Assembly: GCA_002401345.1 (NCBI GenBank) | Contig: NVSU01000013.1 | Span: 1-32,813 of the forward strand | Length of the DNA stretch: 32,813 nucleotides | Source: Candidatus Wolfebacteria bacterium | GTDB taxonomy: Bacteria; Patescibacteriota; Minisyncoccia; Phycocordibacterales; NVSU01 | Direction of reading: 5' to 3' | Part shown: positions 798 through 32,813 of the stretch, piece after piece | Numbering within the stretch: position 1 is the first letter of the stretch | How the letters are laid out: every line of letters begins with the position of its first letter | Notes under the pieces: generated by a model | Told to the model about the DNA's origin: nothing | Databases searched by the model: none | What the model saw: the letters and a program-made list of their open reading frames with translations, nothing else | Program-made: the position numbers and the translations under genes

Positions 798-948
798 CGG
801 GTGTTACTATGGGGCGAGATTACATGAGTCATATCGTCCACTAAAACAAATATTAGAAAGACCGTAGCACATTTACAAAAATAACGAACACCGGAAAAAT
901 AGGCTTTTGCACGTACGCATATAGGTGTAACCACTTTACTTAAAAACC

Positions 949-1401
949 ATGAATATGAACACAGCTAAGCAATTTGTGTTATTAGGATGCACTTTGCTTT
1001 GCACTCATGCCTCCGCCCAAAATCAGTCCTTTGATACACAATTTGATGAATCCTCCATAGAAGACACAATCAAAATTGTGGCACATGCTGGATCTTATTG
1101 TCAGGATATTGAACTGACGTGTCCTGCAAATGGAAAAGAGATCTGTATGTTCAAGATACTTTCAGATTCAGCAGGAAGTATCACCATAAGATTTATAAAC
1201 AAAGAAGGCAAATTCTATAACGATGGAAACTACTTCTATAGAGATCCCAAATTTACTGCTGATGAGTCATCTGTATCCGGATATTATTTCTCAAATACTG
1301 ATTTTTCCTCAGAAAATACAGAGAAGATAGGATTTATGTCGCAAGGAAAGGAATGCGTTCCCTTGTTAATAGTACGCGAACAGGCCACAAAATTTGAATG
1401 A
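949..1401 (+). CDS. Small secreted hypothetical protein
   Basis: A 150-residue protein with a convincing signal peptide (MNMNTAKQFVLLGCTLLC..ASAQ, cleavage after about residue 24). The mature chain has four cysteines in two clusters (YCQDIELTC, KEICMF, KECVPL) that could form disulfides in the periplasm or outside the cell. The C-terminus (ECVPLLIVREQ) has no T9SS sorting domain. I do not recognise the family. It lies about 150 bases after the GldM-C-like gene in the same orientation. The ATG at 949 is favoured because it starts the signal peptide; the ATG at 955 (second Met) would work almost equally well. Confidence 0.7.
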   Translation: MNMNTAKQFVLLGCTLLCTHASAQNQSFDTQFDESSIEDTIKIVAHAGSYCQDIELTCPANGKEICMFKILSDSAGSITIRFINKEGKFYNDGNYFYRDPKFTADESSVSGYYFSNTDFSSENTEKIGFMSQGKECVPLLIVREQATKFE

Positions 1402-1600
1402 CACTGGAAGAAGAAAACAGGTAGTAATCAAAATTGAAATTGATTTAGAAGAAGTTATCAAGGGCAGTTATTATATGCAACTTAAATACGAGAAACGCCA
1501 TCGCGTTTTTTGCGCAGGAAGTAAGATCCAGATTGAAGCAGGAATTTCTGCCCTTCTTCTTCATAGCCTCATTACTCCGTCTAGACCTTCAAACTATTAA
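1394..1600 (+). CDS. Doubtful 68-aa ORF (TTG start)
   Basis: An open frame that would start with TTG eight bases inside the end of the preceding gene. It has no ATG near its beginning. The product begins with a charged segment (KIEIDLEEVIKG) and ends with a hydrophobic patch and SRPSNY. No family was recognised. In its favour are the overlap with the upstream stop, which allows coupling, and a second small frame plus terminator that follow directly. Against it are the rare start and the lack of any recognisable domain. It may equally be the 5' part of a decayed gene. Confidence 0.3.
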   Translation: MNDTGRRKQVVIKIEIDLEEVIKGSYYMQLKYEKRHRVFCAGSKIQIEAGISALLLHSLITPSRPSNY

Positions 1601-1620
1601 ACATTAGATACACCAAACCC

Positions 1621-1800
1621 GTGAGAAAATATACCCAACAGCAATCTGATGAAATGTACGCAATACTCACGGAAATACATGACGCACTCGGTGACCTTAG
1701 GAATAATACGGAGGGAAAAATCGTGATTAATCTTTATGAAAAAGGCTGGTTTCATGGCATTGACGATTTTCTTAAAAGAATGAATAAACCTGTTAAATAG
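1621..1800 (+). CDS. Small 59-aa hypothetical protein (GTG start)
   Basis: A short frame beginning with GTG at 1621 and ending in TAG at 1798-1800. It encodes a charged, helical peptide (begins VRKYTQQQSDEMYAIL, ends DDFLKRMNKPVK). Support comes mainly from context: the stop codon sits in the 5' arm of a strong rho-independent terminator (1799-1820), as expected for the last gene of a transcript. It lies 20 bases after the doubtful 68-aa frame. Composition looks like a real small soluble protein, but no family is recognised and the GTG start is inferred. Confidence 0.45.
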   Translation: MRKYTQQQSDEMYAILTEIHDALGDLRNNTEGKIVINLYEKGWFHGIDDFLKRMNKPVK

Positions 1801-1820
1801 AGTAGTTATACTCTTTTTTT
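1799..1820 (+). terminator. Rho-independent terminator
   Basis: Perfect 6-bp stem AGAGTA/TACTCT with a GTTA loop, followed by six T residues. It overlaps the stop codon of the small ORF at 1621-1800 and separates it from the T9SS operon starting at 1897. Confidence 0.8.
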
Positions 1821-1896
1821 GGGGAAATTCATTCAGTACCTTTCGCCCTCACAAAATCCTGAATCTTAGCGCTCTACTAATCCAAACTGAAAAATA

Positions 1897-4800
1897 ATGA
1901 GAACAATCACATTAACACTAATCGCAGCCATGTTCAGTAGTCTATCTTTTGCGCAAACCGGAGCAACGTGCAACGATGCAATACCACAAACATCAAACAG
2001 TACGTGCGTGTTTACCAACCACACAACCACCACACCGGAAATGTGGTTTACATTCACTGCTTCAAGTACGGATGTTCAAATAAGAGTGGTGAGTGAAGCA
2101 TTTGGAACCAACACCCCTCACGTACATAATATTTCACTTTTTGAGGGAACCTGCACAAATCCAAACTTGATTGCACAGGACGAACTACCCTTTATTGCTA
2201 TAGCGAATGACCTAACTGTAGATGCATCTGGGTTAGTTCCGGGAAACACTTATTACATAAGGGCAAAAGTCCCTGCTTCAGCAACAGCTTGTACGGCAGC
2301 CGCTTGTCCAGGTACTACTACCGTTTCATTTGTGCTATGCATCCAGGATATTGAAGTGTTTCTGCCTCTTGATTTTAGCTTCGTTCTCGATAATTTTGGA
2401 GTAAAAGACGTCCCCTCAAGTAGCCACACATACTACACAAACAAAGGACAAATTGTAGATACAGATGGGAATCCCAAACGAGATATTTTGCTCTATACAA
2501 CACAATCAAGTCCTAATGTTTTTGTATTTGATGATCATCTTTCTTACGTGTTTGCAAAACGGGTCGCTGCCGATACTATTACGGTGGATACATTGCATAG
2601 AGTGGACATGACACTCGTTGGTGGCAACTCCGCTGCCAGAGCATTTAAAACCGAACAAGTACCGGGTAGCTTTAATTATTATTTAGGCCATATCCCAACT
2701 GGAATAACTAACATGCTAGGGTATAACAAAGTTGTTTGCAATGATGTGTATCCTGATATTGATATGCAGTATTACAGTAATTCGGACGGGATGAAGTACT
2801 ATTTTATCCGCCAACCAGGTGGGAATCCCAATGATATTGTAATGAAATTTGAGGGCGCAACTTCGGTAGATGTAACTCCTGATGGTGGTTTGATAATAGC
2901 AACACCTCTGGGAACTATTGACTTCGACCCTGGACATGCCTATGCAATTAACCCTGGAGGCAAGGTTGTTCCAATGCCTTGGCAGGCTAAGTTTATGAAA
3001 GTAACAGCTAACAGTGTGAAATTTGATATACACAGCTTCCCTTCATTTATGCCTCTCGTTATCCAAGTTGATAGAGGACATAGCAGTCAATCTCAGGCGG
3101 CTATTGATAATCTTGAATGGTCAACCTATTGGGGTGGTGTTGAACCTGACTTTTTCACGGACATTAAAAGTGATAATAGTGGAAACATGTATATCACAGG
3201 ATATACAAATAATTTGAACTTCCCCACATTAACCGGATTTTATGTGGATACCGCTGTTAATATAGGAGGTGACCCTGATGCCATTCTAATTAAATTGAAT
3301 AGCAACTGTGAACCAGAATGGACAACCATTTATGGCGGTGATACAAATGGAGTTGGAAACGCTGGATGGGGTATTGATATTGCTAATTCGGTTGCCGTTG
3401 GCAACGCCGGTCAGGTGTATATTGCAGGTCAAACCACAAGTATTGATTTCCCTTTATTTAATGACAATAATGAGTTTTTTGATGGCACCAATGGCTGTTT
3501 TGTCAATACTTCTTGTTGGGATATATTCATCATTAGGTTTGATGGCAATACAGGAATTCCGCTCTGGGGTACGTACTATGGCGCTGACAATGTGGATGAG
3601 CTAGGATCGGACATCGAACTAGATAATAACGGAAATTTATACGTGGTCGGTCATGGTGTACCGTCTGCAACCCCCTTACTACCTGCTACTGGAGCTTCTA
3701 ATTTCACCAGTGGAAATGGGGTAATACTAAAGTTTGATCAAACAGATTCTCTGGTGTGGGCTACACTCTTTGGTACTCAGCAAGTAAGTGCGGGAGAAAG
3801 CATTAATGCAATTCATATAGATCCATCAAACAACATATATATATGTGGAACTACGGTTGATCCAGTTTCTTTGAATCCAATACCTATTGTGAACCCCGGA
3901 GTAAATGCCAGTTTTTCAGGGGCAACCGATGGTTTCTTTGCGAAATTCAATAGCAATGATCTTCTAACCACTTCCACATATATAGGAGGCTCATCCACTG
4001 ATCGAGCCAACGGAATTACAACAGATCCTTCAGGAAAGATTTATATTACCGGACTTACTTTTAGTCAAGACTTCCCTACACAATCACTAGGTGATATTGG
4101 TGCATATTTTGTCGATACTCTCACTGTACAATTTACAACGAGAAGTGATGCTTTTGTAACCCAACTAGAAAGTGATGGTCAACTCAGACATTCAACATAT
4201 TGGGGAGGATTTGGGGATGATCAAGGAATTGATATAATCTCAGGGAATGATGGCTTGATCTATATCGGTGGAAATACTATGAGTGATTCAAGTAGTTTTA
4301 TACCCGATTATATCACAATACCATTTCCGAACAGCACTCCACCTGATGTATTTATTCAACCTCACATGAAGGGTGGGCCTGGATTTGAATTCGATGGTTT
4401 TGTTTCAGCAATTACTCCCTCTTTTCAAATAAAATGGAGCACATATTTCGGAGGAAACTCTGGTGATGTCCTTAACGCAATCCATGCGGATGACAATAAA
4501 CTGTATATAGCTGGATATTCTCAATCCAGCGGTCAGAAGATACCGCTAGTTGATTTCAATACATCAAGTACTACTGACTATTATCAAGATGTAAAAGTTG
4601 GTAGTTGGCAAGATGGCTTTGCCGCTCGTTTTGATTTAAGTCCAGTCATTATACTCTCTGACAACCATGCTGTTTTAGGGCATTCTGTTTTAAAGGTTTT
4701 TCCGAATCCCACCACTGGCAAAATATTTATCCCTTATCAAAAATTTATAGGGGCAACCATTTCCGTTTTTGACGTACTTGGAAGACATGTAATTTCGGAA

Positions 4801-4929
4801 CAGATGCCTAAGCGCATAAACGGTGATGGGGTCTTTGAATTGGATATGACCAATGTTGCGAAAGGTGTGTATGTAGTACGGATAGATTCGGAGAAGGAAA
4901 GAATTACTAGTAAATTTATTGTGGAATAA
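1897..4929 (+). CDS. T9SS-secreted SBBP beta-propeller protein
   Basis: A 1010-residue cell-surface or extracellular protein. Residues 1-19 are a signal peptide (ends SLSFAQ). An N-terminal beta-rich domain of about 150 residues, cysteine-containing, is followed by a region typical of proteins carrying SBBP repeats: KYYFIRQPGGNPNDIVMKFE, then a 'DGGLIIATPLGTIDF' stretch. From about residue 406 there are successive propeller blades of the form WSTYWGG-x-D-...-D-x-x-GN-x-YI-x-GYT-x-x-x-FP, seen at least six times. The last ~80 residues (from KVFPNPTTG, about 931) form a type A T9SS sorting domain, ending in a KGVYVV-type strand and a basic tail. It heads a tight operon: the next gene starts nine bases after its stop. 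Probably adhesive or structural; no catalytic motif seen. Confidence 0.9.
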   Translation: MRTITLTLIAAMFSSLSFAQTGATCNDAIPQTSNSTCVFTNHTTTTPEMWFTFTASSTDVQIRVVSEAFGTNTPHVHNISLFEGTCTNPNLIAQDELPFIAIANDLTVDASGLVPGNTYYIRAKVPASATACTAAACPGTTTVSFVLCIQDIEVFLPLDFSFVLDNFGVKDVPSSSHTYYTNKGQIVDTDGNPKRDILLYTTQSSPNVFVFDDHLSYVFAKRVAADTITVDTLHRVDMTLVGGNSAARAFKTEQVPGSFNYYLGHIPTGITNMLGYNKVVCNDVYPDIDMQYYSNSDGMKYYFIRQPGGNPNDIVMKFEGATSVDVTPDGGLIIATPLGTIDFDPGHAYAINPGGKVVPMPWQAKFMKVTANSVKFDIHSFPSFMPLVIQVDRGHSSQSQAAIDNLEWSTYWGGVEPDFFTDIKSDNSGNMYITGYTNNLNFPTLTGFYVDTAVNIGGDPDAILIKLNSNCEPEWTTIYGGDTNGVGNAGWGIDIANSVAVGNAGQVYIAGQTTSIDFPLFNDNNEFFDGTNGCFVNTSCWDIFIIRFDGNTGIPLWGTYYGADNVDELGSDIELDNNGNLYVVGHGVPSATPLLPATGASNFTSGNGVILKFDQTDSLVWATLFGTQQVSAGESINAIHIDPSNNIYICGTTVDPVSLNPIPIVNPGVNASFSGATDGFFAKFNSNDLLTTSTYIGGSSTDRANGITTDPSGKIYITGLTFSQDFPTQSLGDIGAYFVDTLTVQFTTRSDAFVTQLESDGQLRHSTYWGGFGDDQGIDIISGNDGLIYIGGNTMSDSSSFIPDYITIPFPNSTPPDVFIQPHMKGGPGFEFDGFVSAITPSFQIKWSTYFGGNSGDVLNAIHADDNKLYIAGYSQSSGQKIPLVDFNTSSTTDYYQDVKVGSWQDGFAARFDLSPVIILSDNHAVLGHSVLKVFPNPTTGKIFIPYQKFIGATISVFDVLGRHVISEQMPKRINGDGVFELDMTNVAKGVYVVRIDSEKERITSKFIVE

Positions 4930-4938
4930 TTACGACTT

Positions 4939-5913
4939 ATGAGAACGTATTACTTTAAACTCATTTTAGCCGTTTGCTTTTTATCACCATATCTCAAGGA
5001 GTGTGCTCACGCACAAGATTTATTGGCCGGAGAAATCACCTCGAATCACGTATCTGGATTTACCTATGACGCCATTATTACAATTTATGCCAAAGACACG
5101 GCAATTAATCGTGACTCAATTATTATCGCTTGGGGTGACGGTGTTAATGACACTGTACTCAAAATCTCAGATAATAAAATAAATGACTTGCGCGTGATAA
5201 CCTATATGGGTACACATTTGTTTCCTGGTGATGGGGTGTATTCAATTAGCTATTCTGGCAACTATAGAGTGTCTGGATTAGAGAATATTCCTTTTTCAGA
5301 GACTACTTCGTTGCTACTTGAACATACACTATTGATCTCATCAACATATAATAACTCATCCGTCCAATTCCTATCACCTCCTTACGATATTGGGGCGTCC
5401 GGTGAAGTATATAACTATTGGCCTGCGGCTTATGACCCTGATGGTGATAGTTTGTCATATTCTATTAACGCGCCTTCTGGTAGTGGTTCGTCTATACCAG
5501 CAGGAATCTCAATTAATGCAATAACGGGCGATCTTATTTGGAATTTGCCATCCCAGGCAGGAGACTATGCGATTAGGCTTGAGGTGACAGAGTGGAGAAA
5601 CAGTACCATTATCTCAACTGTAAAGAGAGAAATGCTCATTCATATTAGTGCTTTTACATCAATCCACATGCCTGTTTCAAATGACATTAAAATTTACCCC
5701 AACCCCACAGCCGGGCTGATCACCGTAACCGGCCTTCCCCGAGAGCCGACCAGGATCACCGTTTATAATGTTCTGGGCCAGATGGTTCATGAAGAGACGC
5801 TGACAAGGTCAGGTGAACCGGTTATTGATTTATCAGATTTAACAGATGGGATATATTTAATCCAAGTGAAGGAAGGTCAGCAGACCCATGGGATAAGGAT
5901 AATTAAACAGTAG
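4939..5913 (+). CDS. T9SS-secreted protein with cadherin/Ig-like domain
   Basis: 324 residues with a signal peptide (to about residue 26, CAHAQ). The body is beta-rich. Residues about 155-235 carry AAYDPDGDSLSYSI, PAGISINAITGDLIW and GDYAIRLEVTEW, the hallmark of the putative-Ig/cadherin-like repeats common in Bacteroidota surface proteins, with a DPDGD calcium-type loop. A T9SS sorting domain starts at IKIYPNPTAG and ends in IRIIKQ. It is cotranscribed with the propeller protein upstream and the 198-aa protein six bases downstream. The DNA for the sorting domain (about 5690-5830) is visibly richer in G and C than the rest of the gene, suggesting a separate origin of that segment. Confidence 0.85.
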   Translation: MRTYYFKLILAVCFLSPYLKECAHAQDLLAGEITSNHVSGFTYDAIITIYAKDTAINRDSIIIAWGDGVNDTVLKISDNKINDLRVITYMGTHLFPGDGVYSISYSGNYRVSGLENIPFSETTSLLLEHTLLISSTYNNSSVQFLSPPYDIGASGEVYNYWPAAYDPDGDSLSYSINAPSGSGSSIPAGISINAITGDLIWNLPSQAGDYAIRLEVTEWRNSTIISTVKREMLIHISAFTSIHMPVSNDIKIYPNPTAGLITVTGLPREPTRITVYNVLGQMVHEETLTRSGEPVIDLSDLTDGIYLIQVKEGQQTHGIRIIKQ

Positions 5914-5919
5914 GTTCAA

Positions 5920-6516
5920 ATGCGGGTAATTGTAATTGCGGTAATACTGTTAAGCTTACATTTTAGGTTACTAGCCCAAAACGAGCCTACCGTTACTATT
6001 GCTCCTGATCCATTTGTGGATACCACAACCATTACTTTTTCGCTCTCCTTTTCAGATACGGTCTCGCTGATTGTATATAATCAATTTGGGGAATTAATAG
6101 ACAGTATACTAAATGAACAGTTAATGCCTGCTGGAACACAAAGTATTCAGTTTATTGGAGACACTCTTCCAATAGGCAAATACTTTGCCCACTTAGACGT
6201 TGATACACATCTGATTGTTACCCAATTCATCAAGATAGGACAGCTAACTTTGGGTGAAGTGAGGTATGGGTTGGAACAACTCAATATTAACATCTTTCCG
6301 AACCCGACTACCGGGCTAATTACAATAACAAATCTACCTCAAGAAATAACCAAGATCGCAGTTTACAATGTCCTAGGTGAGCTGGTGCTTAACCAGGAGC
6401 TAATTGAGTCAAACAAAGCCTTAATTCACCTAGATGATTTACCCAATGGCGTTTATTTTCTTCAGGTGAGTAACGGAGAAAACGCTATGTCTGTAAAAGT
6501 CATTAAACAAGATTGA
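5920..6516 (+). CDS. Short T9SS protein with two tandem sorting-like domains
   Basis: 198 residues: a signal peptide (to about residue 19, LLAQ), a first beta domain (about 25-105) and a C-terminal T9SS sorting domain (from NIFPNPTTG to KVIKQD). The first domain resembles the second in outline: a 'PDPF-x-DTTTI' opening, V-x-L-IVYNQFGELI, a turn and a GKYFAHL strand, the FlgD/T9SS-CTD-like pattern. Between signal peptide and sorting domain there is therefore almost no other cargo. The sorting domain matches that of the preceding gene in wording (NPT-x-GLIT-x-T, VYNVLG). Its TGA overlaps the ATG of the nuclease-like gene by one base, so translation is probably coupled. Role unknown. Confidence 0.8.
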   Translation: MRVIVIAVILLSLHFRLLAQNEPTVTIAPDPFVDTTTITFSLSFSDTVSLIVYNQFGELIDSILNEQLMPAGTQSIQFIGDTLPIGKYFAHLDVDTHLIVTQFIKIGQLTLGEVRYGLEQLNINIFPNPTTGLITITNLPQEITKIAVYNVLGELVLNQELIESNKALIHLDDLPNGVYFLQVSNGENAMSVKVIKQD

Positions 6517-7814: not shown

Positions 7815-8297
7815 CTAATATTCTCTCCTTCTAATCATAACAAAATACATGGTCGCCCCTGTTCTGATCAGTGTGTAGTGGCCCAGTTCAAGTTCGTATT
7901 TATGGGTTCCGTAATTGGTTGATTTTATTGCACCGTGAGAAGTGGAATCGGTTTTGATATACCCGCGCCATTTTAATTTGTTCTTTATTTCCAAATATGA
8001 ATTGAAGTCGTTTGTAGAATATAGGACGGTGGCAACCTCTCCGGCTCCGGCCTTATCCTGGCTGTATTGCACCCTTCCAAAGGAATTGGACCTTACTGCG
8101 TATACAGTGCCCATAGAATCCACTTCTCCCCTGTCTTTATAGTTCTTGTCATCTAGATACGTATTGAGCTCTATTGTTCGCATTTCAACGAAGTTTTCCA
8201 ACTCAAGCAGGGAGATCTGCTGACTGTACCCTGGTAGGGTGGATGACACGAGTAACACAATTATCAGTAAGTCTTTCAATCTATACTTTAGTTTCAT
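7815..8297 (-). CDS. Exported hypothetical protein, paralogue of 18349-18774
   Basis: 160 residues with a signal peptide (KDLLIIVLLVSSTLPGYSQ). It shares order and spacing of motifs with the protein at 18349-18774: SLLELENFVEMRTIELNTYL, then a Y-S-T-NDFNSYLEIKNKLKWRGYI segment, and KYELELGHYTLIRTGATMYFVMI near the end. The paralogue has SLKELELYSQMSLGALDGVL, SFDAKLTISKKLEMRGYI and KYEIRLDHVIENTGQDVYVI. No catalytic or lipidation motif is visible. The two copies lie on either side of the recombinase/restriction region, both on the minus strand. Probably a periplasmic or secreted small protein; role unknown. Confidence 0.7.
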   Translation of the reverse strand: MKLKYRLKDLLIIVLLVSSTLPGYSQQISLLELENFVEMRTIELNTYLDDKNYKDRGEVDSMGTVYAVRSNSFGRVQYSQDKAGAGEVATVLYSTNDFNSYLEIKNKLKWRGYIKTDSTSHGAIKSTNYGTHKYELELGHYTLIRTGATMYFVMIRRREY

Positions 8298-10679: not shown

Positions 10680-10739
10680 CTCAATTTTGTGACAACCATG
10701 ATTTTAGTTTTACGTACAAAGTCAAAAGCATTTAATCTA

Positions 10740-12518
10740 ATGGAGACAAAAAAGAAAGTCGGTATATGGATCAGAGTTTCAACTGAAGATCAGGCCAAAG
10801 GAGAAAGCCCAGAACATCACGAAAAACGTGCAAGCTATTATGCCAAAGCAAAAGAATGGGAAGTAATTAAGGTATATAATCTTCGAGGTGTAAGCGGAAA
10901 ATCGGTCATGGACCATCCAGAAACTAAAAGGATGTTAGCTGACGTGCAAAATAAGCGCATTACAGGGCTTATCTTCTCAAAATTAGCCCGTCTTACCAGA
11001 AACCTAAAAGAACTCTTAGATTTCTCGGAAATATTCCAAGAGCATAATGCAAGTATGATCTCTCTAGGAGAATCAATCGACACGTCAACCCCTGCGGGAA
11101 GACTCTTTTATGCAATGATAGCAGCAATGGCTCAGTGGGAACGCGAAGAAATTGCTGGGAGAGTGGCCGCCTCAGTTCCCATTCGGGCAAAGCTTGGCAA
11201 ACCATTGGGAGGTGCAGCACCATTTGGATACCGTTGGCTGACAAACGGTGACGGGAAAGCAACAAAACTTGCTATAGATGAGCATGAAGCCCCAATTCGC
11301 AAATTTATTTTCGAACTTTTCTCAAAGCATAAGCGCAAGAAAACCGTAGCTGGAATGCTTACTAAAAAAGGATATCGAACCCGTAATGGGTCTAAGTTCT
11401 CGGATACCACTATTGACCGATTGTTAACTGACCCTATTGCCAAAGGCACAAGACGGGTGAATTATACAAAGAGCCTAGGGGTAAACAAAAAGTGGGAGAT
11501 CAAACCAGAATCAGATTGGGTATATAATGATGTTCCCCCTATTGTTTCAGATGATCTTTGGAACGCATGCAACACTATAATAGACGAACAGAGAAAGAAG
11601 AATAAGAGGAAACCACGCGGAGCAAAGAGATTGTTTGCAGGTCTTGTTTATTGTCATTGCGGAACTAAAATGTATGTATCCTCATATATTCCAAAAGGAC
11701 TATCTCCTAACTATAAATGTGAAAAGTGCAAAAACAAAATAGCACTGGATGATTTAGAGGAAATCTATTACGTTGAACTCCAAACCTTCTTAATCAACGG
11801 AGGACATATAGAAGAATACCTCAAAAAAGCTGATTCACTTGTGTATGATAAAGCTGAACTACTGAGTTCTCATACAAACGAGAAAGAGAAACTGGAGAAA
11901 GAAATGGATCGTCTTGTTAAGCTCCATTCTGAAGGAGAACTACCAACGAAAGGGTTTAACAAACATTACAATCCTTTATTTGAACAAGCTGAACAAATAG
12001 AACTGCAGATACCAGAAATACAGGCTGAGATTGATTTTCTTAAAATTGAATATCTGTCAGGAGATCAAGTATTGAAAGAGGCACATACAATCTATGATCG
12101 TTGGCCTAAACTAGAGCTACATGAGAAGCAACTCATTACTGAAGACCTTACTGAGAAGATCACTATTGGATCGGATGAGATCCAATTCGAATTCAATTAT
12201 ACGCCTGTGCCACGTTCTTCTAATAAAACCCTTACAAAAGAGCAACACAACAACATGGATGCGTTGCCCTTTTGTAAAATCACACTGAATACCCTGAAAT
12301 CTCCACCCCGTTCACTCTTATACCCCATTGAACTAAACACCCTAGGCGATCACATTCGTAAACGTAGATTGGAATTAGGATTATTGCAAAGAGATGTGGC
12401 CAAGATAATGGGTGTTTGTGAGGACACCATTACGGGTTGGGAAACAGGAAGAAGCAATCCTTCTAAAAGACTCATAGGAAGTATAATCAAATTTCTGAAT
12501 TACAACCCATTTGATTAA
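10740..12518 (+). CDS. Large serine recombinase with C-terminal XRE HTH
   Basis: 592 residues from the ATG at 10740 (METKKKVGIWIRVST); an upstream in-frame ATG at 10698 adds residues that do not belong to the family. The resolvase domain has Arg12 and the catalytic Ser14 in IRVSTEDQA, then FSKLARLTRNLKELL and AAMAQWEREEIAGRV. A 'recombinase' domain follows (GGAAPFGYRW, VAGMLTKKGYRTRNG). A zinc ribbon is at about 303-332 (C-x-C ... C-x2-C: YCHCGTKMY, YKCEKCKNK), then a coiled coil at about 365-450. Unusually, the last ~60 residues form a helix-turn-helix (TLGDHIRKRRLELGLLQRDV ... TITGWETGRSNP), a unit also seen as a stand-alone protein family. It probably integrates and excises the element. 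The fused HTH may aid site choice or autoregulation. Confidence 0.9.
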   Translation: METKKKVGIWIRVSTEDQAKGESPEHHEKRASYYAKAKEWEVIKVYNLRGVSGKSVMDHPETKRMLADVQNKRITGLIFSKLARLTRNLKELLDFSEIFQEHNASMISLGESIDTSTPAGRLFYAMIAAMAQWEREEIAGRVAASVPIRAKLGKPLGGAAPFGYRWLTNGDGKATKLAIDEHEAPIRKFIFELFSKHKRKKTVAGMLTKKGYRTRNGSKFSDTTIDRLLTDPIAKGTRRVNYTKSLGVNKKWEIKPESDWVYNDVPPIVSDDLWNACNTIIDEQRKKNKRKPRGAKRLFAGLVYCHCGTKMYVSSYIPKGLSPNYKCEKCKNKIALDDLEEIYYVELQTFLINGGHIEEYLKKADSLVYDKAELLSSHTNEKEKLEKEMDRLVKLHSEGELPTKGFNKHYNPLFEQAEQIELQIPEIQAEIDFLKIEYLSGDQVLKEAHTIYDRWPKLELHEKQLITEDLTEKITIGSDEIQFEFNYTPVPRSSNKTLTKEQHNNMDALPFCKITLNTLKSPPRSLLYPIELNTLGDHIRKRRLELGLLQRDVAKIMGVCEDTITGWETGRSNPSKRLIGSIIKFLNYNPFD

Positions 12519-13082: not shown

Positions 13083-13733
13083 CTAAAACTCAAATAAAAA
13101 GTGTTTTAGTTCAATGCTATCATGTTTGGATATATACAGATCTTCGAAGCCTGTGCTATCAGAGCACATCGCTAATACTTCTGCCTTTCTACCGTCCTTT
13201 TCCAATAATTTATTAATCCCATCAACGCATTTTTTTTTGGTTCCATATAAAACATAACCAGCTAAACAGCCCCTTGGATATCTCTCCGTAGTGAAATTTT
13301 CAATCCCGGTATCTATATATCTTCTTTTTAAATAAGAAGCAGAGATAATAGTTCCATTCGACTTTTTCCAATCTGAACTACATAAGTTTTTCGCTTCAAC
13401 GTAATATTCATGTTTATTTGAAGGACTGGTAAAGCTCCCTAACCAAAAATCAATCCTTGGTTGTCTCCTTGGATCGTCCTTTGTTTTAGGGATTGGCAAA
13501 CCGTCATTTTCCGGTTCCACCTGGGTTTTGATAAAGACACATTTCTCCTTTGTCGTTTTACTTTTTCTCATGAAAGTCGCTAAATAATTTGTGAAAGAAT
13601 CTTCAATCCAGTCTCGGTTATATTTGGCATCCTTAATCGCCTCTTGATATCCTTCTACCAAAATGGAAGTACAAATGAATTCAAAACTCCCAACAAAACT
13701 CTGCACAATGTCTGTACTCAAACCACCACTCAT
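13083..13733 (-). CDS. PD-(D/E)XK restriction-type nuclease, methylase partner
   Basis: 216 residues. The active-site pattern is clear: Asp95 in PRIDFWLGS and Glu113-Ala-Lys115 in YYVEAKNL, with a hydrophobic strand before each, as in the restriction-endonuclease fold. The remainder is helical at the N-terminus and contains CLAGYVLYGTKKKCVDGINK. Its ATG overlaps the methylase stop in an ATGA junction, so the two proteins are almost certainly made together. I infer the cleavage partner of the methylase in a two-gene restriction-modification system; the sequence-recognition part most likely lies in the methylase. An alternative is a nuclease that acts without the methylase, as in some defence islands. 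Confidence 0.7.
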   Translation of the reverse strand: MSGGLSTDIVQSFVGSFEFICTSILVEGYQEAIKDAKYNRDWIEDSFTNYLATFMRKSKTTKEKCVFIKTQVEPENDGLPIPKTKDDPRRQPRIDFWLGSFTSPSNKHEYYVEAKNLCSSDWKKSNGTIISASYLKRRYIDTGIENFTTERYPRGCLAGYVLYGTKKKCVDGINKLLEKDGRKAEVLAMCSDSTGFEDLYISKHDSIELKHFLFEF

Positions 13734-16700
13734 TTATTGAATACCATTATTTCATTAATAACTGAGTTAGCATCATCCATTCCTTGAGAACGAGTCCAAT
13801 ATCTATTCTGATTGGGCTTCACAATGAATATGGTATCACCATCATAAAACCTGATCTGCTTGCGGACGAAGATATTTTGAGAGTACTTTTCCAAAGTATG
13901 TTCGTTGATTTTATTTAGATGGCTTTCTATCTCTACAATCGAATCCATAACAATTGGAGCCTTCAAATCTGATTCGGGGACGAAGTGAAACGCGACCACT
14001 GTCAAGGGGAAATGGTGAGGTGAAACATAAACCATTGCGTTAACTTTTAACGTCCCAGAAATTAAAAACTCATTTATTTCAGCACAAACGATTTCTGCAA
14101 AGCCAATTGTTTCAGGGTTCTTTGTACTTATAGGGTTTAGGGCAATGGATTTGGCCCCTTTAAAAAATAATGGTAATGTAAAATCACAAAAGTCTCTGAT
14201 AAGAATGACATCTCGAACTGTTAACTTCAAAGACTGCTGAATTAGCTCACTTAGCTCCGTCTTAATGCTCTTGTCTTGAGCAAAAAATTGATCTCGTTCA
14301 TGTCGGATCGAATCAAACAAATCGCCATATGCTTGAAAGTCCTCTTCAGGTACTTGCGGAAGCCGTTTTACATCTGTGGGTTTGATTTCTTCTCTTTCAA
14401 TTCCAAGTGATGCTGAATGCAGAAATAGAAAATACATGCCAAAATCGGAATTAATTAAACAAGTAATTGCCTTCAAAAGCAATTCGCTTTTATGGTGAAT
14501 CCCATACACCTTGCTGTTAAATGAACATGAATAATCCAGAAAAGAAGCACACACGCGATTCTTGCTTAACCCCTCTTTGATAAGTACATGGGGTCCCTGA
14601 AACGCCTTCATCTTGCCCAGTCTCCTGAACGAATCTATTTCAGGCAAATCATTATACTGATCTAATTTGTAATAGGACAAGTAATGAGAGATTGCGTTAT
14701 CCGTCTTAAGGCTTTTGTTTATTGAGTATGTTTGGGGCTTGTCAGTATAGTAACGAACGATATGTTCTGGCAGAATAAACGGAATATTTCTAAGACTGTT
14801 ATTACGAATTGGTTTTGTAGTGGTACCATCCAAAGTTTGAAAGCCAACACCGTTATTTTCTTCATCAAGCAAATCTTTAATTGGAGAAATTTGCATAAGC
14901 CTATCTATTAATAAATAGTCTGCCATTGTTCCCCACTGAGCAATTTTCCAAATTTTAGTATCCGGTTTATGGCATATTTCTCTTGGAAGGTACTTAATGT
15001 CTGTTGCCTCAATTATTACTCCATCAACAACATTGTGTTTGATAAAAGTTTTAGGAGCCCAGTATTCAATAGTATCTCTATAGTTCCTGGGGGGCGAGTT
15101 CCCATTCTGAAAAAACACAATACTGATAGGAACAACAGCAGATGAAAAGAGATGTCCTCCAAAATCCTTTGGAGCTTTTCTCAAAATTGATAGGTTAAAA
15201 ACTTTCTCGACAAAATTCTCATTGAATAACCACTGTCTAAAATTTTGAGCTTTAGAATGCGAATTAGTTAGAATCTTCGTATTAAACACAAGGCCTGCTC
15301 TGCCATTAGGTTTTAATAAACTTGCCGATTTATGAATAAAAGGTATTACGTATTGTGAACTAAAGTTCCGAGAATGGCAATATGCTTTGATGCTTTCTGA
15401 AAGGCCATTGGCTCCAAATGGAGGATTTCCAACAATAACATCGTATTTGATTTTCTCAAACTCACCATCTAAGGCTATAGTATCACATCTATATAAATTA
15501 TGACCCTGGTTCTCATCTTTTTCTGAGTCAATATCTCGAATCAAATTGGGAAACTTTTCCTCGTTTTTCAACCAAACGTCTCTTGGTGAGAGAAAGTCCA
15601 ATAATGCAAGATACAGGCTGAATGATGCTACTTTGATCGATTTATCGTCAATTTCTACTCCAAATATAGAATCAGTCAAAATCTGCGAAAGAACAGAAAA
15701 CTCTGGTGTTACTCCCGGGTGAGCATTTTTCCAATATTGGACTACTCGTTTATAAGCCTGTGCTAAGAAGATTCCTGATCCGCATGCTGGATCAAGTATT
15801 TTTAACTTGTAGTTCGTTCCTCCATTTGGCAAGACATTATCTAAGACCAACTCAACTAAAGTAGGAGGAGTGTAATACGTCCCTGTTTGTTTCTTACGAA
15901 TCGGATCAAATTCTGCCAAAAACTTTTCATAAATCTCACTGAGTAATTCAATCCTGATAAAACTAAAATCAAATAGTCTCCAATTGAAAAATTTCTGTTG
16001 GGCCAGGTTGATATCTCCGTCTGTCAAACAATGCTTAATTAACGTAAGATGTTCATCCGTTATTTGTGAGCGTTCCTCATCCGATATCGGGAAAACATTT
16101 CCATTAAAATGGACTAGAATTTCATCAAACAACGCATATGTCAAATCTTTGGAATCAAGAATATTTAAAAAATCATTGTCGCCAGTTTTTTTCCAAATTT
16201 CTTGTGGAATTGCCTGCCGATCTTGCAAGTACATAATAAAAATGCAGCGCATAAGCAGGTGATGAACAGCTCTGTGTTCATCAACATCCTCTTTAATTTT
16301 TCTTGCCAATTTTACCAAAGAATTCACCAGATAATGGTCAACTTTAGTTTGCAGTTTTACTTTTTTGGAATAGTCGGTCATCCAGATTGACCCAGAGTCG
16401 ATTGCGATCCTTGAAAAAACATGTTGAAGCCTCTCTAGCTTTGCCGAATCCCTTAAAACGCACTGCTCAATAGTTCGGATCTCTAATTCTTTTGGTAACC
16501 TAACCTCAGCGTCCACTCTATTGAGCAACACAGGGCTTTCATTACAATTGTATATTCTTATCTCTGCTGGAGAAGTAACGTACAAGAAAGTCACCCTGCT
16601 ATTGTTCCATATTTTGCGCTGTAATTCGGCAATTTCCTTTAATGTATCCAGATCAAATCGGGATACTTTTTTGAAGAAGACGGCAGGATAATTTCCAGAG

Positions 16701-16810
16701 TAGTGAACCGCATCAGCTCCTATTTTTTCAATGAGCATCAACCCTTCTGATGGCATCTTCGAAGCTTTAATATCAAACCCAAGTTTTAGTATGAAAAAAT
16801 CGCTGCTCAT
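13730..16810 (-). CDS. N6-adenine DNA methylase with specificity region (type IIG/Eco57I-like)
   Basis: 1026 residues. SAM-binding motif I is at about 339-345 (LKILDPACGSGIFLAQA), preceded by GTYYTPPTLVELVLDNVLP as in N-6 DNA methylases, and catalytic motif IV is at about 461-464 (YDVIVGNPPFGANG). The C-terminal half (about 600-900) looks like a target-recognition region (RNIPFILPEHIVRYY, GPHVLIKEGLSKNRVCASF). The N-terminal ~130 residues (PAVFFKKVSRFDLDTLKEIA, KIWNNSRVTFLYV) resemble the place where type IIG enzymes carry their nuclease, but I see no D...E-x-K there; the nuclease is instead the next gene. It has a 457-base intergenic region upstream. No ATPase or HsdR-like gene is adjacent, which argues against classical type I or type III. 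Confidence 0.85.
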   Translation of the reverse strand: MSSDFFILKLGFDIKASKMPSEGLMLIEKIGADAVHYSGNYPAVFFKKVSRFDLDTLKEIAELQRKIWNNSRVTFLYVTSPAEIRIYNCNESPVLLNRVDAEVRLPKELEIRTIEQCVLRDSAKLERLQHVFSRIAIDSGSIWMTDYSKKVKLQTKVDHYLVNSLVKLARKIKEDVDEHRAVHHLLMRCIFIMYLQDRQAIPQEIWKKTGDNDFLNILDSKDLTYALFDEILVHFNGNVFPISDEERSQITDEHLTLIKHCLTDGDINLAQQKFFNWRLFDFSFIRIELLSEIYEKFLAEFDPIRKKQTGTYYTPPTLVELVLDNVLPNGGTNYKLKILDPACGSGIFLAQAYKRVVQYWKNAHPGVTPEFSVLSQILTDSIFGVEIDDKSIKVASFSLYLALLDFLSPRDVWLKNEEKFPNLIRDIDSEKDENQGHNLYRCDTIALDGEFEKIKYDVIVGNPPFGANGLSESIKAYCHSRNFSSQYVIPFIHKSASLLKPNGRAGLVFNTKILTNSHSKAQNFRQWLFNENFVEKVFNLSILRKAPKDFGGHLFSSAVVPISIVFFQNGNSPPRNYRDTIEYWAPKTFIKHNVVDGVIIEATDIKYLPREICHKPDTKIWKIAQWGTMADYLLIDRLMQISPIKDLLDEENNGVGFQTLDGTTTKPIRNNSLRNIPFILPEHIVRYYTDKPQTYSINKSLKTDNAISHYLSYYKLDQYNDLPEIDSFRRLGKMKAFQGPHVLIKEGLSKNRVCASFLDYSCSFNSKVYGIHHKSELLLKAITCLINSDFGMYFLFLHSASLGIEREEIKPTDVKRLPQVPEEDFQAYGDLFDSIRHERDQFFAQDKSIKTELSELIQQSLKLTVRDVILIRDFCDFTLPLFFKGAKSIALNPISTKNPETIGFAEIVCAEINEFLISGTLKVNAMVYVSPHHFPLTVVAFHFVPESDLKAPIVMDSIVEIESHLNKINEHTLEKYSQNIFVRKQIRFYDGDTIFIVKPNQNRYWTRSQGMDDANSVINEIMVFNK

Positions 16811-17267: not shown

Positions 17268-17654
17268 ATGCTCCTTACTCCACAAATAAAATACGATGGC
17301 CACCTTTTATTGGACGCTTACTCATTTAGCAGTGAAGAAATAAACTCGGTTTCATTTGTTCTTGTTAAGGCGAATAATAATATAGTCACTGAACCATTGC
17401 AGAAGGACCAGGAAGGCAGAGATGGACTTCGCTATATTATAGTGGAGAGTCTGATTTTCAGACTTGAAGATCTTCTCAATTTGACATTTGAACTAACACC
17501 TGATGATAGGACAAGAGTGACTTTCGAGGAAACCTATTTCAATGCTGATGCTGATGGAGATGGGGCATCAAGTTACAAATGCTCCAAAATTGATACCCCC
17601 CCCCGGATGGTTGCCAGACAATTTTTGCAAACGATGAGAAAGAGGCAGCCGTAA
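17268..17654 (+). CDS. Hypothetical protein interrupted at a C9 tract
   Basis: As read, 128 residues (MLLTPQIKYDGHLLLDAYSF ...) with a Cys-containing acidic region (FNADADGDGASSYKCSKIDT) followed directly by the C9 tract. After the tract this frame gives a short basic tail (RMVARQFLQTMRKRQP). Reading one base back instead (one extra C, or a -1 slip) opens a frame to TGA at 17717-17719 encoding PDGCQTIFANDEKEAAVKCA then LIANSNNWLGGVPTPGEC, which looks far more protein-like and adds three cysteines. The longer product would be about 150 residues. So the gene is phase-variable, frameshifted by slippage, recently broken, or carries a sequencing error. Family not recognised. It diverges from the methylase gene. 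Confidence 0.55.
   Translation: MLLTPQIKYDGHLLLDAYSFSSEEINSVSFVLVKANNNIVTEPLQKDQEGRDGLRYIIVESLIFRLEDLLNLTFELTPDDRTRVTFEETYFNADADGDGASSYKCSKIDTPPRMVARQFLQTMRKRQP
17596..17604 (+). repeat. Homopolymeric C9 tract
   Basis: Nine consecutive C in a coding region of AT-rich DNA. Tracts of this length are classic sites of slipped-strand mispairing, and C-CCC-CCC is also a possible slippery sequence for -1 ribosomal frameshifting. The two frames entering downstream have very different tails, described under the gene. Confidence 0.9.
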
Positions 17655-18051
17655 AGTGTGCGTTGATTGCTAACTCAAATAACTGGTTGGGTGGAGTGCC
17701 GACACCTGGAGAGTGCTGAACTTGACAAAAATGCCTGCTGCCAACTCTTTTTTCTCACATGTTATTAAAAATGAGGGAAGGAAATCAAACCTTTACAAGT
17801 TGAGGAAATGAAAACTAAACCTCTCCTTAACCCTCCAGCCTGAACGACTAACACAAACATCGGCTGAACAAAAGAAGGTGAGAAACGGACTTTGGGGTTC
17901 AAGGGATGGAGATTATCACTTGCCGCAAATAAATGGCTCTGTGAAAATAGGTAGGGCTGAAAATTGCAATTAATCCCAATGAGGTGTTAGGACTTGTGGA
18001 TTCCGCAAAACAAAACACCATATCTTTATGCTGACAGTATCCGAGCACTAT
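17655..18051. other. Gene-poor interval
   Basis: Apart from the alternative C-terminal frame of the preceding gene (to 17719), I see no gene, RNA or strong dyad here. It leads into the decayed recombinase 3' end at 18052. Confidence 0.4.
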
Positions 18052-18312
18052 CCGGTTGCATTGCCCTTTAGTAAAATCATACTGAATACCCCAAAATCTC
18101 CACCTCCTTCCCTCTTATATCTTAATGAACTAAAGTCCTTGGGCGACCATATCCGCCAGCATAGACCAGACCTTGTATTCTTTTACAGAAAGATGTTGCA
18201 CTTACAATTGGTACATGTGAGGACACAATTACAGGTTGGGAGAATGGAAGAAGTAATCCTGCTAATAAATTTATTGGGGGTATCACTAAATTTTTGGGGT
18301 ATAATCCGCTTC
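18052..18312 (+). pseudogene. Decayed copy of the recombinase C-terminal HTH region
   Basis: The DNA aligns from end to end with 12262-12510, the 3' end of the serine recombinase. The first part reads LPFSKIILNTPKSPPPSLLY and LGDHIRQHRPDL, against LPFCKITLNTLKSPPRSLLY and LGDHIRKRRLEL in the intact gene. After that the frame shifts, but the DNA still matches (GTGAGGACAC, ACAGGTTGGGA, GGAAGAAG-AATCC). Catalytic and zinc-ribbon regions are absent. It is either the remnant of a related recombinase or of the stand-alone HTH family with the same fold. The divergence shows it is not a recent duplication. Confidence 0.85.
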
Positions 18313-18348: not shown

Positions 18349-18774
18349 CTATCCCCTCTTAAACTTCATGCTAATGACATAAACATCTTGCCCTGTATTC
18401 TCAATAACATGGTCTAAACGTATCTCATATTTATAGGTTGCGTATACTTGCATTAAGTCAGAAGATTCAATCAGGATATATCCTCTCATTTCTAGCTTCT
18501 TTGATATAGTCAATTTAGCATCAAAACTTGATGTGGTGTACTTTACTAATGTATCTTGGTGCTCAATCATTCCTGTAGCGTTCTTCCAGCTCCTTACGTC
18601 TTTAACGGAATTACTCTTAACGTCTGTGTACATTTTGCCCGTTAAGACGCCATCCAATGCACCTAAACTCATCTGAGAATAAAGCTCCAATTCTTTCAAT
18701 GAAGGACCCTGTGCACAGCAAAATGTAGTCTGGATTAACAAGGAAAGGCATCCTAATACTATACGCTCTTTCAT
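18349..18774 (-). CDS. Exported hypothetical protein, paralogue of 7815-8297
   Basis: 141 residues with a signal peptide (MKERIVLGCLSLLIQTTFCC then AQ). A lipobox is not convincing, although cysteines lie near the cleavage site. Similarity to the 7815-8297 protein runs along the length: an N-terminal LKELELYSQMSLGALDGVL helix, TSSFDAKLTISKKLEMRGYI in the middle and YKYEIRLDHVIENTGQDVYV near the end. It converges with the decayed recombinase end, 36 bases away. Being paired with a mobile-element remnant here and with a repeat near the other copy suggests that both travel as cargo. Function unknown. Confidence 0.7.
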   Translation of the reverse strand: MKERIVLGCLSLLIQTTFCCAQGPSLKELELYSQMSLGALDGVLTGKMYTDVKSNSVKDVRSWKNATGMIEHQDTLVKYTTSSFDAKLTISKKLEMRGYILIESSDLMQVYATYKYEIRLDHVIENTGQDVYVISMKFKRG

Positions 18775-20269: not shown

Positions 20270-23200
20270 TCATTTGTTCCTCTCGGATTTTTTCTTTCTC
20301 TTCATCGCATCCAGAATTACCTTAGACACTGAATCTCTCTTTTTATCCATTTCCGATTCAGGAATGGCATTGTATTTAGATTTTACCCGATATCCCTTTG
20401 TTCGTTTCTCAATTGAGGCAATCTGAGCAATTTGCTGATCTAAGAAAAAAGCCAATTGCCCCTTGGTAAAAACTTTGACCATTGATTGCACCGAGGGAGT
20501 AAGATTGGAATAAAGAAATTCCTTTAAGCTATTGGCGTGATGTTCTCCTGAAGAACAAACAACAACTATCTTATAACCAGCAGTTAGGCACTTTTCAATA
20601 TTTTTAATCTCATACTCTTTAGTGGTCACAGATATTTCACACGCAATCCTTATTTCACCAAGTTCCAGTGCAACATCAACTCTCCCTTTTCCGTGCGGTA
20701 CTTCTTGCTCAATAGTTGCTTTAAATCCTCTGGATTCTGCTAGCTTTTTCACATATGTCTGAAGATAACGATGTTCTGTTATACCCTTTCTCTCAGATTC
20801 CACCTTTTGTATCTCATCTCTCTCAATACTTGGCTTGTCATCAGCCACAGGCTGTTCCACTATAGCTTGAGGTTCTTCCTTTTCAGAAATAGGATGAATA
20901 TGTGAGACCAAATTATCTGCTATCCCTTTTTCAATATTTTCACGATTCTCACCATACTTGTCTCTAGATAATCGTATGATATTAGCTTTCCTTTCCGAAG
21001 CTATATTCTTATCTACTTTATCAGGGAGAACAGTGACCAGATTAAAATCACTATCTCTTTTATCCACTCGTACAATAGCCTCACCAATATTCAGATTTTG
21101 CAAGTCCGATGAGCTGAAGTACGAAAATCCATCTTCCAATTTCTTTGCATCAAAATCTCCTAGTCTGAAACAAATTCGTGTTCCTGCATTGGATATAATG
21201 GAATTTGCTACTTCACTATCCTGTTTCTGGATTTGGTCAAGATTCTGATGTGCTGCAACAAGTCCAAAATGGTATTTTCTTGCACCAGATAATATGTCTT
21301 CCATAGACTTTGTAATAAAATTCTGGAATTCGTCCACGTATAGGAAATAGTTGTTTCTAGATGCATCACTCTTCGCCTGACGGGCCATTACAGCCTGATG
21401 GAGTTTTGACACAATGAGCGTTCCCAAAAGGTAGCTATTCTCAGACCCTATAAGACCTTGTGAGAGTTTGACCAAAAGAATTTTACCTCCGTCCAGAATA
21501 GAATTAAAATCCAAACCCTCCTTTTGCGCCATCATATTGCGGATTAGTTTGGGACGTAAGAAGGTGTTAAGTCGGGTGAGTAGCGGTGCAATGGAATGGC
21601 TTTTCAAATGAGGAAATTCATTTTCCCAATAGTAGACTACGCTAGGATCGCGTACCGTTTTCATAAACGTATCACGGAATTTCTGCTCAACTAAAAATCT
21701 TCTTAAATCAAGTAGAGTACCCCCCTTGTCACTTTCTAAGAAGGCAGAAATTGCATTTGAAAGAACTGAGGTCATTACATCACCCCAACTCGTGGCAATC
21801 CTTTGGAATAGTGCAATCAAATCCGAGGAAAGCACAATCTTTTCAATCTCTGAATGCGCTGTTAATAGATTAAATCCTACTGGGTAGTCATAATCTGAAG
21901 GATCAACAAGTACAACATCTTTATGTCTGTGATCTGGTATATGTGATAGTACGTTATCTATAAGGTCACCGTGAGGATCTAACACAGCTATTCCATTACC
22001 CTTTTCAATATCCTGTATAATTTGGTTCAACAGGAATACTGATTTCCCCATGCCTGTTGCACCTATAACATGAATGTGTCGAAGCTTTTGTTCAGCACTC
22101 AGTCCAACTTCCGTTTCTTTGGAATGATGCAAATTTACACCTAAAACGTATTCATTGTTACATACAGCATCTGGCGCTTTTTTAGTTTTACCCAAATCAC
22201 GTCCTAATTTTTCTGACACTACGGAAGCAGACGGAAGATGAACCAATGAGACGAGTTCCTTACTGTTCAGGATCATTCCTAGTCGATGTGAGTTTCTGTG
22301 CAATACCCCGAATAAGTGTGCATCATATGGGTACTTGTCATTAGAGAGTGCGATTAACTCATTTGAACTAGGTCGAGAGAGTAGTTTTAATACGCCGGCA
22401 ACACTTTGCACTATTTCCAATGACCGCTCGTTAGACTCACTCTGTGCAAGCACACGTATTACCACACTAAATAGAGGTGAAGCTACTTTCTCTCTAGTCA
22501 AAGAGAGGATTTCAGGGGCATCTGAAAAGAAACAACCTCCAGAATCATCCTGAACTGCATGGAGCATTTCTTTTGCCCACGGATTTTTAACGCCTTGAAA
22601 TAAGACCTGTATTGCTCCCATTTCACCACTCTCTATCCCCTCTAGTGCACCCGCGATACTTGAAAGAAGATCAGGATTAAATCCCCTCACAGATTGCAAT
22701 GGACACATAAACTCATCGGATAAACCAAAATCCACAATGAGCATTTCTTGAAATCCATCATATTCCTGATACTTCTTTATTAAATACCCCTGCTCGATGG
22801 TAAGAACAACTTCTGGATAAAATGCTTTTACTTGATTCAAGACATATGACTCATCAGGCTGCCTGCACGTAATCTGAATAACCGTCTTGTCATGAGTACT
22901 AATCACCTCATAACAAATTGGCAAACGACAATTAGAAAGCATCACCAGAAAACTTTCAGCAGTATCAATTGAAGTATCTTGACCCTTTGGTACATTTATT
23001 TGAATTTCACTTAATGTATACATGTCCTCAGAAGGAAATGCTGATCTATCTATACTTATATCGCTTAAGTCGGTGTCCTCATTTTGCACCTGAGTCGATT
23101 TACTTCTAAACATATCTGCAATGGAACTTAATAGTGTAGGTTCTCTTCCATCGTCTATAGCTAGATCAGGAGAAACAGGAATCTGTAATAGTGGAGCAAA

Positions 23201-23305
23201 AGGAGGTTCAAGTTGGACAGGTTGACCGTAGACGTACCACCCACGACCAAAGTGTTCCCACTTATAGAACTGAGACGTAAGATTTTCACTTGATGAGGGG
23301 ATCAT
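20270..23305 (-). CDS. VirD4/HerA-like ATPase with C-terminal nuclease-like domain
   Basis: 1011 residues. Walker A is at 415-422 (GATGMGKS), followed by GNGIAVLDPHGDLIDNVLS, and Walker B at about 653-660 (YFLYVDEFQNF), then LVAAHQNLDQI and a TraG-type RICFRLGDFDAKKLE segment: the VirD4/TraG/HerA class of DNA-pumping ATPases. The first ~400 residues are a separate region with no recognised motif. After a charged linker (about 770-840) a C-terminal domain carries GRVDVALE and RIACEISVTTKEYEIKNIEK, a restriction-endonuclease-like core with Asp at about 875 and Glu at about 889, but Ser where the usual catalytic Lys stands. It ends in a basic tail (KKRDSVSK, KKKSERNK). No transfer genes adjoin. 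Last gene of the minus-strand cluster, 42 bases after the J-domain gene. Confidence 0.8.
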   Translation of the reverse strand: MIPSSSENLTSQFYKWEHFGRGWYVYGQPVQLEPPFAPLLQIPVSPDLAIDDGREPTLLSSIADMFRSKSTQVQNEDTDLSDISIDRSAFPSEDMYTLSEIQINVPKGQDTSIDTAESFLVMLSNCRLPICYEVISTHDKTVIQITCRQPDESYVLNQVKAFYPEVVLTIEQGYLIKKYQEYDGFQEMLIVDFGLSDEFMCPLQSVRGFNPDLLSSIAGALEGIESGEMGAIQVLFQGVKNPWAKEMLHAVQDDSGGCFFSDAPEILSLTREKVASPLFSVVIRVLAQSESNERSLEIVQSVAGVLKLLSRPSSNELIALSNDKYPYDAHLFGVLHRNSHRLGMILNSKELVSLVHLPSASVVSEKLGRDLGKTKKAPDAVCNNEYVLGVNLHHSKETEVGLSAEQKLRHIHVIGATGMGKSVFLLNQIIQDIEKGNGIAVLDPHGDLIDNVLSHIPDHRHKDVVLVDPSDYDYPVGFNLLTAHSEIEKIVLSSDLIALFQRIATSWGDVMTSVLSNAISAFLESDKGGTLLDLRRFLVEQKFRDTFMKTVRDPSVVYYWENEFPHLKSHSIAPLLTRLNTFLRPKLIRNMMAQKEGLDFNSILDGGKILLVKLSQGLIGSENSYLLGTLIVSKLHQAVMARQAKSDASRNNYFLYVDEFQNFITKSMEDILSGARKYHFGLVAAHQNLDQIQKQDSEVANSIISNAGTRICFRLGDFDAKKLEDGFSYFSSSDLQNLNIGEAIVRVDKRDSDFNLVTVLPDKVDKNIASERKANIIRLSRDKYGENRENIEKGIADNLVSHIHPISEKEEPQAIVEQPVADDKPSIERDEIQKVESERKGITEHRYLQTYVKKLAESRGFKATIEQEVPHGKGRVDVALELGEIRIACEISVTTKEYEIKNIEKCLTAGYKIVVVCSSGEHHANSLKEFLYSNLTPSVQSMVKVFTKGQLAFFLDQQIAQIASIEKRTKGYRVKSKYNAIPESEMDKKRDSVSKVILDAMKRKKKSERNK

Positions 23306-32616: not shown

Positions 32617-32743
32617 AATATATAGGTTAAAAATGAGTACCAAAGGTATAGATAATAGTTATCCATCAGTCTATCAACTACTTGATGCTTTTTGTAATCC
32701 TAAATTAATATTCAGATCAGACCTCCGCGCAGCACCGGGATAA

Positions 32744-32789
32744 CGCCCAACGGCCATTCTGATTTGGCGGCCAGAATAGCCGTTGGGCG
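32744..32789. repeat. Long near-perfect hairpin with attC-like core motifs
   Basis: Arms CGCCCAACGGC (32744-32754) and GCCGTTGGGCG (32779-32789) pair perfectly; after one C/A mismatch six more pairs follow (ATTCTG/CAGAAT), leaving a 10-base loop. The outer bases contain GCCCAAC and GTTGGGC, which fit the RYYYAAC and GTTRRRY core sites of integron attC. At 46 bases it is shorter than normal attC sites and lacks obvious extrahelical bases. It is not a clean terminator because no T-run follows directly on either strand. It lies near the window end, so the context to the right is unknown. Confidence 0.5.
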
Positions 32790-32813
32790 AGATTTTATTA
32801 AAAATCCGTATCG

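Follow-up and report, generated by a model that had tools for sequence, protein, structure and literature searches.

The stretch of DNA analysed here (the window, 32,813 nucleotides, contig C14) carries on its plus strand a small gene that is split by a run of nine consecutive Cs (C9, 17596–17604). Reading from the ATG at 17268, the zero frame covers a common part of 109 codons (17268–17594), passes through the tract and stops at 17652–17654, giving a protein of 128 aa that ends ...SSYKCSKIDTPPRMVARQFLQTMRKRQP* and whose tail beyond the tract (RMVARQFLQTMRKRQP then stop, 17604–17654) is basic. The −1 frame is open past C9 to 17716, stops at 17717–17719 and encodes PPPDGCQTIFANDEKEAAVKCALIANSNNWLGGVPTPGEC*, the C-terminal part that is used with C10 or after a −1 slip being DGCQTIFANDEKEAAVKCALIANSNNWLGGVPTPGEC then stop (17606–17719). 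A tenth C, or a −1 slip on C CCC CCC, joins the two frames into one protein of 150 aa that ends DTPPPDGCQTIFANDEKEAAVKCALIANSNNWLGGVPTPGEC and has three more cysteines in its tail, while a C8 variant gives about 122 aa with the end GWLPDNFCKR. The heptamer C CCC CCC is a slippery sequence of the X XXY YYZ type and lies in the zero frame, and C9 is both the point of the frame switch and the proposed slipped-strand site.

Codon usage was scored with a model trained on the window's own genes. The common part scored +19.7 bits and was the best frame throughout; past the tract the 37 codons of the −1 frame (17606–17716) scored +7.6 bits against −13.4 and −18.5 for the remaining two frames, and 15 codons of the C9-form tail about −1 bit. 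As a yardstick, the 95th percentile for equal-length out-of-frame stop-free stretches was 5.5 bits and the median for true coding stretches 5.9. Per-codon scores on both sides of C9 exceeded the mean of the training genes, and a second model built from 389 kb of the genome agreed with the first (+19.1 before C9, +7.1 for the −1 frame after it). Scoring of both sides revealed no second lesion, and a change of one repeat unit at C9 joins two frames each of which is favoured on its own side. The original prediction that C9 splits the gene entered at 17268, leaving it with a short basic tail, and that the −1 frame runs on to 17719 with a Cys-containing end, is borne out by these data. Its proposal that the parts are joined by C10 or by a −1 slip likewise agrees with the codon statistics, its suggestion of phase variation is the putative cause favoured here, and that of a programmed frameshift finds no support, the downstream RNA folding no better than shuffled sequences.

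A tract of this length is mildly unusual by itself, and the signal is that it falls exactly where the frame switches cleanly. C9 is the longest G/C run of the window; the number expected by chance per window is 0.07 on average, and four of 100 dinucleotide shuffles contained one. A Markov estimate for the whole genome (897 kb, about 92% complete; genomes of the order span roughly 0.4–1.4 Mb) gave about 0.58, and two were found, the second at 11207–11215 of contig C17. Three G/C runs of exactly eight (contigs C6, C22 and C24) show no visible gene split and two of them lie inside intact long frames, so that most G/C runs of this genome are ordinary. When the 389-kb codon model was applied to that part of the assembly, C9 of the window was the sole G/C run at a clean frame switch and no other G/C run of at least six was so placed; four clean switches elsewhere, all at A7 or T7 runs, may be gene junctions. 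MutS_V had no match in the genome, as against matches in 11 of 14 control genomes, an absence that is uncertain at about 92% completeness. In a relative (L054) a G9 tract at 1501–1509 lies between a 519-aa frame and a 77-aa frame, the latter matching the C-terminus of a YfhO-like membrane protein (E 2.6e-8); judged by its sequence, this gene too appears to be split by a G/C tract.

The product of the split gene is an orphan. The protein had no match in Pfam or PHROGs, the 128-aa form none in PADLOC, and the only PDB match (E 0.94) was no better than chance. Searches of the nearest 60 genomes, of 397 from the order and 380 from the phylum (sets that overlap) and of genome, viral, plasmid and phage collections gave no credible relative, and scans of genome contigs matched neither the protein nor the S1/P1 nuclease. 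Three candidates (L005, L006 and L032; E 0.001–0.007) were rejected as chance-like, the first two lying in other genes or frames and L032 being a short low-scoring stretch. Structure prediction of the 128-aa form gave a mean pLDDT of 38.8. Since the gene is an orphan in every collection searched, homology does not tell which C-terminal end is the normal one, and conservation of the tract cannot be shown for this gene.

Divergent from the split gene lies, as originally proposed, a restriction-modification methylase (13730–16810, minus strand), which proved to be a type IIG restriction-methylation enzyme (N6_Mtase and Eco57I in Pfam; PADLOC REase_MTase_IIG over residues 86–1022, E 1e-55). The end of this gene is overlapped by a companion on the same strand (13083–13733) with no family match in Pfam or PADLOC. 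A search at E 1e-100 found the enzyme in no other genome of the 397-genome sample of the order, so that there is no synteny to read, and its relatives elsewhere are on plasmids and only about 24–27% identical. Two genes of a mobile-element core flank this region: a large serine recombinase (10689–12518, plus strand; Resolvase and Recombinase in Pfam) and a TraG/VirD4-like ATPase (20270–23305, minus strand; TrwB_AAD_bind). Homologues of the recombinase (42–58% identical) adjoin TraG-like genes in relatives, and because the two flanking genes are thus neighbours elsewhere, the split gene and the type IIG enzyme appear to be cargo that entered a mobile element. At 18054–18296 (plus strand) lies a decayed copy of the recombinase gene's 3′ end, 73% identical to 12257–12497. 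The minus strand also encodes two similar small secreted proteins, at 18349–18774 (MK...CAQGPSLKELELYSQM) and 7815–8297 (MK...YSQQISLLELENFVEM), apparent paralogues within one contig.

The presence of T9SS sorting tails and an odd tetranucleotide profile initially suggested that the contig was Bacteroidota contamination. This was rejected for its core because homologues of the TraG-like protein, full-length or nearly so and 43–47% identical, occur in four genomes of the same order; in some of these the recombinase adjoins the TraG-like gene, and the end repeat of the contig is identical on contigs C17 and C20. The verdict covers the core. In the left 10 kb, the region 57–6516 encodes a GldM-domain protein as well as proteins that carry T9SS sorting tails, and it has DNA copies on contigs C15 and C19 (82–92% identical). 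Other sampled members of the order have 0–2 such tails each, and the T9SS-tail genes of 57–6516, C15 and C19 may be either host-derived or carried on mixed-in contigs. The end repeat (32715–32813) is identical to sequences at the starts of C15 and C17 and at the end of C20 and contains a GC-rich hairpin, CGCCCAACGGC...GCCGTTGGGCG; it is probably the end of an insertion sequence at which the contigs broke.

The other C9 tract of the genome, on C17, has an ambiguous base directly 5′ of it and sits at the 5′ end of a bAvd gene (E 2e-10; locus L077) that is divergent from an adjacent reverse transcriptase gene (RVT_1, E 4e-24). Copies of a template and variable repeat (TR/VR) at C17:11773 and 12268 differ at 11 of 80 bases, and because 10 of these 11 differences are at adenines of the TR the locus is, as judged from its sequence, a diversity-generating retroelement (DGR). 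Reverse transcriptase (RT) genes were then searched for in the 397 genomes of the order and 110 RT 5′ ends were read, the 108 with an avd match being the loci counted. The scan of 60 relatives for C9 tracts and the RT search coincide in 13 genomes, this one included, with coordinates matched by hand. A simple repeat is present at the 5′ end of avd in 105 of the 108 loci. It is a C run of 6–14 just upstream of the conserved avd body in 94, and in 11 it is (CT)n (seven loci), (CA)n, (AG)n, (GTCA)n or (AACC)n, each of at least 14 bases; the remaining three have one C6, one C6-N19-C6 (L133) and none. A G/C run of at least eight occurs at the avd 5′ site in 89 of 108 loci and in none of the equal-length control stretches taken from avd or RT. 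A gap like that in L133 would be in keeping with variation in tract length or with failure of reads.

The frame of these repeats was counted at the 46 loci in which avd is well aligned (at least 55% identity) and an open ATG precedes the repeat. The nearest open ATG, which stands in for the true avd start codon, was in frame with avd at 12, off by one at 23 and off by two at 11, so that the share that would be ON is approximate. From locus to locus one type of repeat has replaced another at this position and all three frames are represented, which is the pattern expected on sequence grounds of a translational contingency locus. We therefore consider it very probable that the avd repeat is a predicted ON/OFF contingency switch on DGR mutagenesis throughout the order: the length of the tract would decide whether Avd is made and hence, probably, whether mutagenesis takes place. 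The repeat is also upstream of RT on the other strand and may affect RT as well. One genome (G145) has two DGRs (L161 and L167) that have closely similar RT 5′ ends and the C11 tract in common; beyond the tract their avd bodies differ, a pattern that an exchange of avd at this point would give.

In Neisseria and Campylobacter, G/C tracts are known to give translational ON/OFF phase variation, and the targets there are mostly surface or methylase genes. The window tract resembles these in being a G/C run of at least eight in coding DNA in which one-base steps shift the frame, and by position the avd tracts of the order fit the ON/OFF type; the differences are that the tract of the window lies late in its gene and that the avd target is part of a retroelement. 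A parallel for a homopolymer late in a frame, at which a change in length swaps the C-terminus while expression is kept, is the C-terminal phase variation at homopolymer tracts of Helicobacter canadensis (PMC2823697). There, however, variation in tract length was seen in reads, whereas the window tract is known from assembled sequence alone, in another lineage and an orphan protein. A global survey of DGRs defined a clade restricted to Patescibacteria (clade 2; Roux 2021, PMC8144416), and the DGR on C17 is like these in having RT, bAvd and a TR/VR pair with adenine-specific differences. Genome size and the type of DGR suggest that the window's lineage, too, belongs to Patescibacteria. The words homopolymer, phase varia- and frameshift are absent from that paper, and we found no published report of repeats gating avd in the open-access literature, although earlier notice elsewhere is possible.

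For the window tract the explanation that we favour, with a probability of roughly one half, is that C9 is a hypermutable slipped-strand tract predicted to switch the C-terminus of the split gene. A single small gene (17268–17719) would have its last quarter behind the tract, and slipped-strand mispairing in replication would add or remove a C, giving the 150-aa form with three more tail cysteines from C10, the 128-aa form with a basic tail from C9 and the form of about 122 aa from C8. Slippage this late in the gene would swap its C-terminus without silencing it. The frame switch at C9 is seen directly; slippage in living cells, its reversibility and any benefit are inferred. The main support is indirect and comes from other loci of the lineage: the odds that C9 is a slippage site are raised because the genome has no MutS_V match, because the lineage appears to tolerate and conserve C tracts as switches and because a G9 tract in a relative seems to split the C-terminus of a YfhO-like protein. 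Against switching stand the decay of the neighbourhood, with the recombinase remnant at 18054–18296, and the lack of homologues in the collections searched, as well as the ordinary setting of the three G/C runs of exactly eight.

Next in rank, though unlikely, is that a one-base indel at the C tract broke the gene for good, so that it would now be a recent pseudogene of a mobile island in decay. The orphan status of the gene fits this, as do the decayed recombinase fragment about 330 bases downstream and the largely non-coding stretch of roughly 0.6 kb ahead of the next convincing gene, and singleton frameshifted genes are mostly indels or errors (PMC3711429). Yet the two sides of the tract have a codon usage on a par with that of intact genes, with no second lesion, and in a cell without MutS a C9 tract would be expected to go on slipping, which blurs the distinction between a fixed and a switching tract. 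An error of sequencing or assembly, the real tract being C10 and the gene intact, is marginally less probable again. C9 is the longest G/C run in the window and assemblies of the order falter at such tracts, as shown by the N beside C9 of C17, the C6-N19-C6 of L133 and the Ns between G10 and G15 in L057. On the other side, the contig is without any N, about 160 other coding homopolymers of the assembly are intact with no other G/C run at a clean switch, and tracts of mixed length would give the same trouble in assembly.

A programmed −1 ribosomal frameshift or transcriptional slippage on C-CCC-CCC, by which both forms would come from one DNA, is very improbable: the heptamer is in the right frame and slipping by −1 would yield the 150-aa protein that C10 encodes, but shuffled sequences are as stable as the downstream RNA (z +0.10, −0.59 and −0.42), whose stem begins only two bases past the tract, and no homologue conserving the frame transition was found in the collections searched. 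C-only slippery sites are also rare among known programmed −1 sites, which counts against this explanation. That there is no gene here, or two unrelated frames that overlap by chance, would suit the absence of homologues from the collections searched but is just as improbable, as the codon scores of both parts are within the range of real genes and the alternative frames are far below zero.

Slipped-strand switching of the orphan's tail can be set beside the avd repeats in one broader and still tentative reading, put at slightly under even odds, in which simple repeats of the order are contingency switches, acting on avd to turn Avd, and with it probably DGR hypermutation, ON or OFF at random from cell to cell and, as a further member, at C9 of the window. 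Of the two, the avd repeat switch is the stronger result; the window gene alone would be one more phase-variable orphan, of modest interest. Most known cases of phase variation by simple repeats come from animal-associated pathogens. If the reading is correct, it would be a conserved, order-wide feature in a lineage of tiny genomes, and mutagenesis itself would be stochastically gated, through an accessory gene of the retroelement that mutates target genes, so that targets would be diversified in a few cells and kept in working order in the others.
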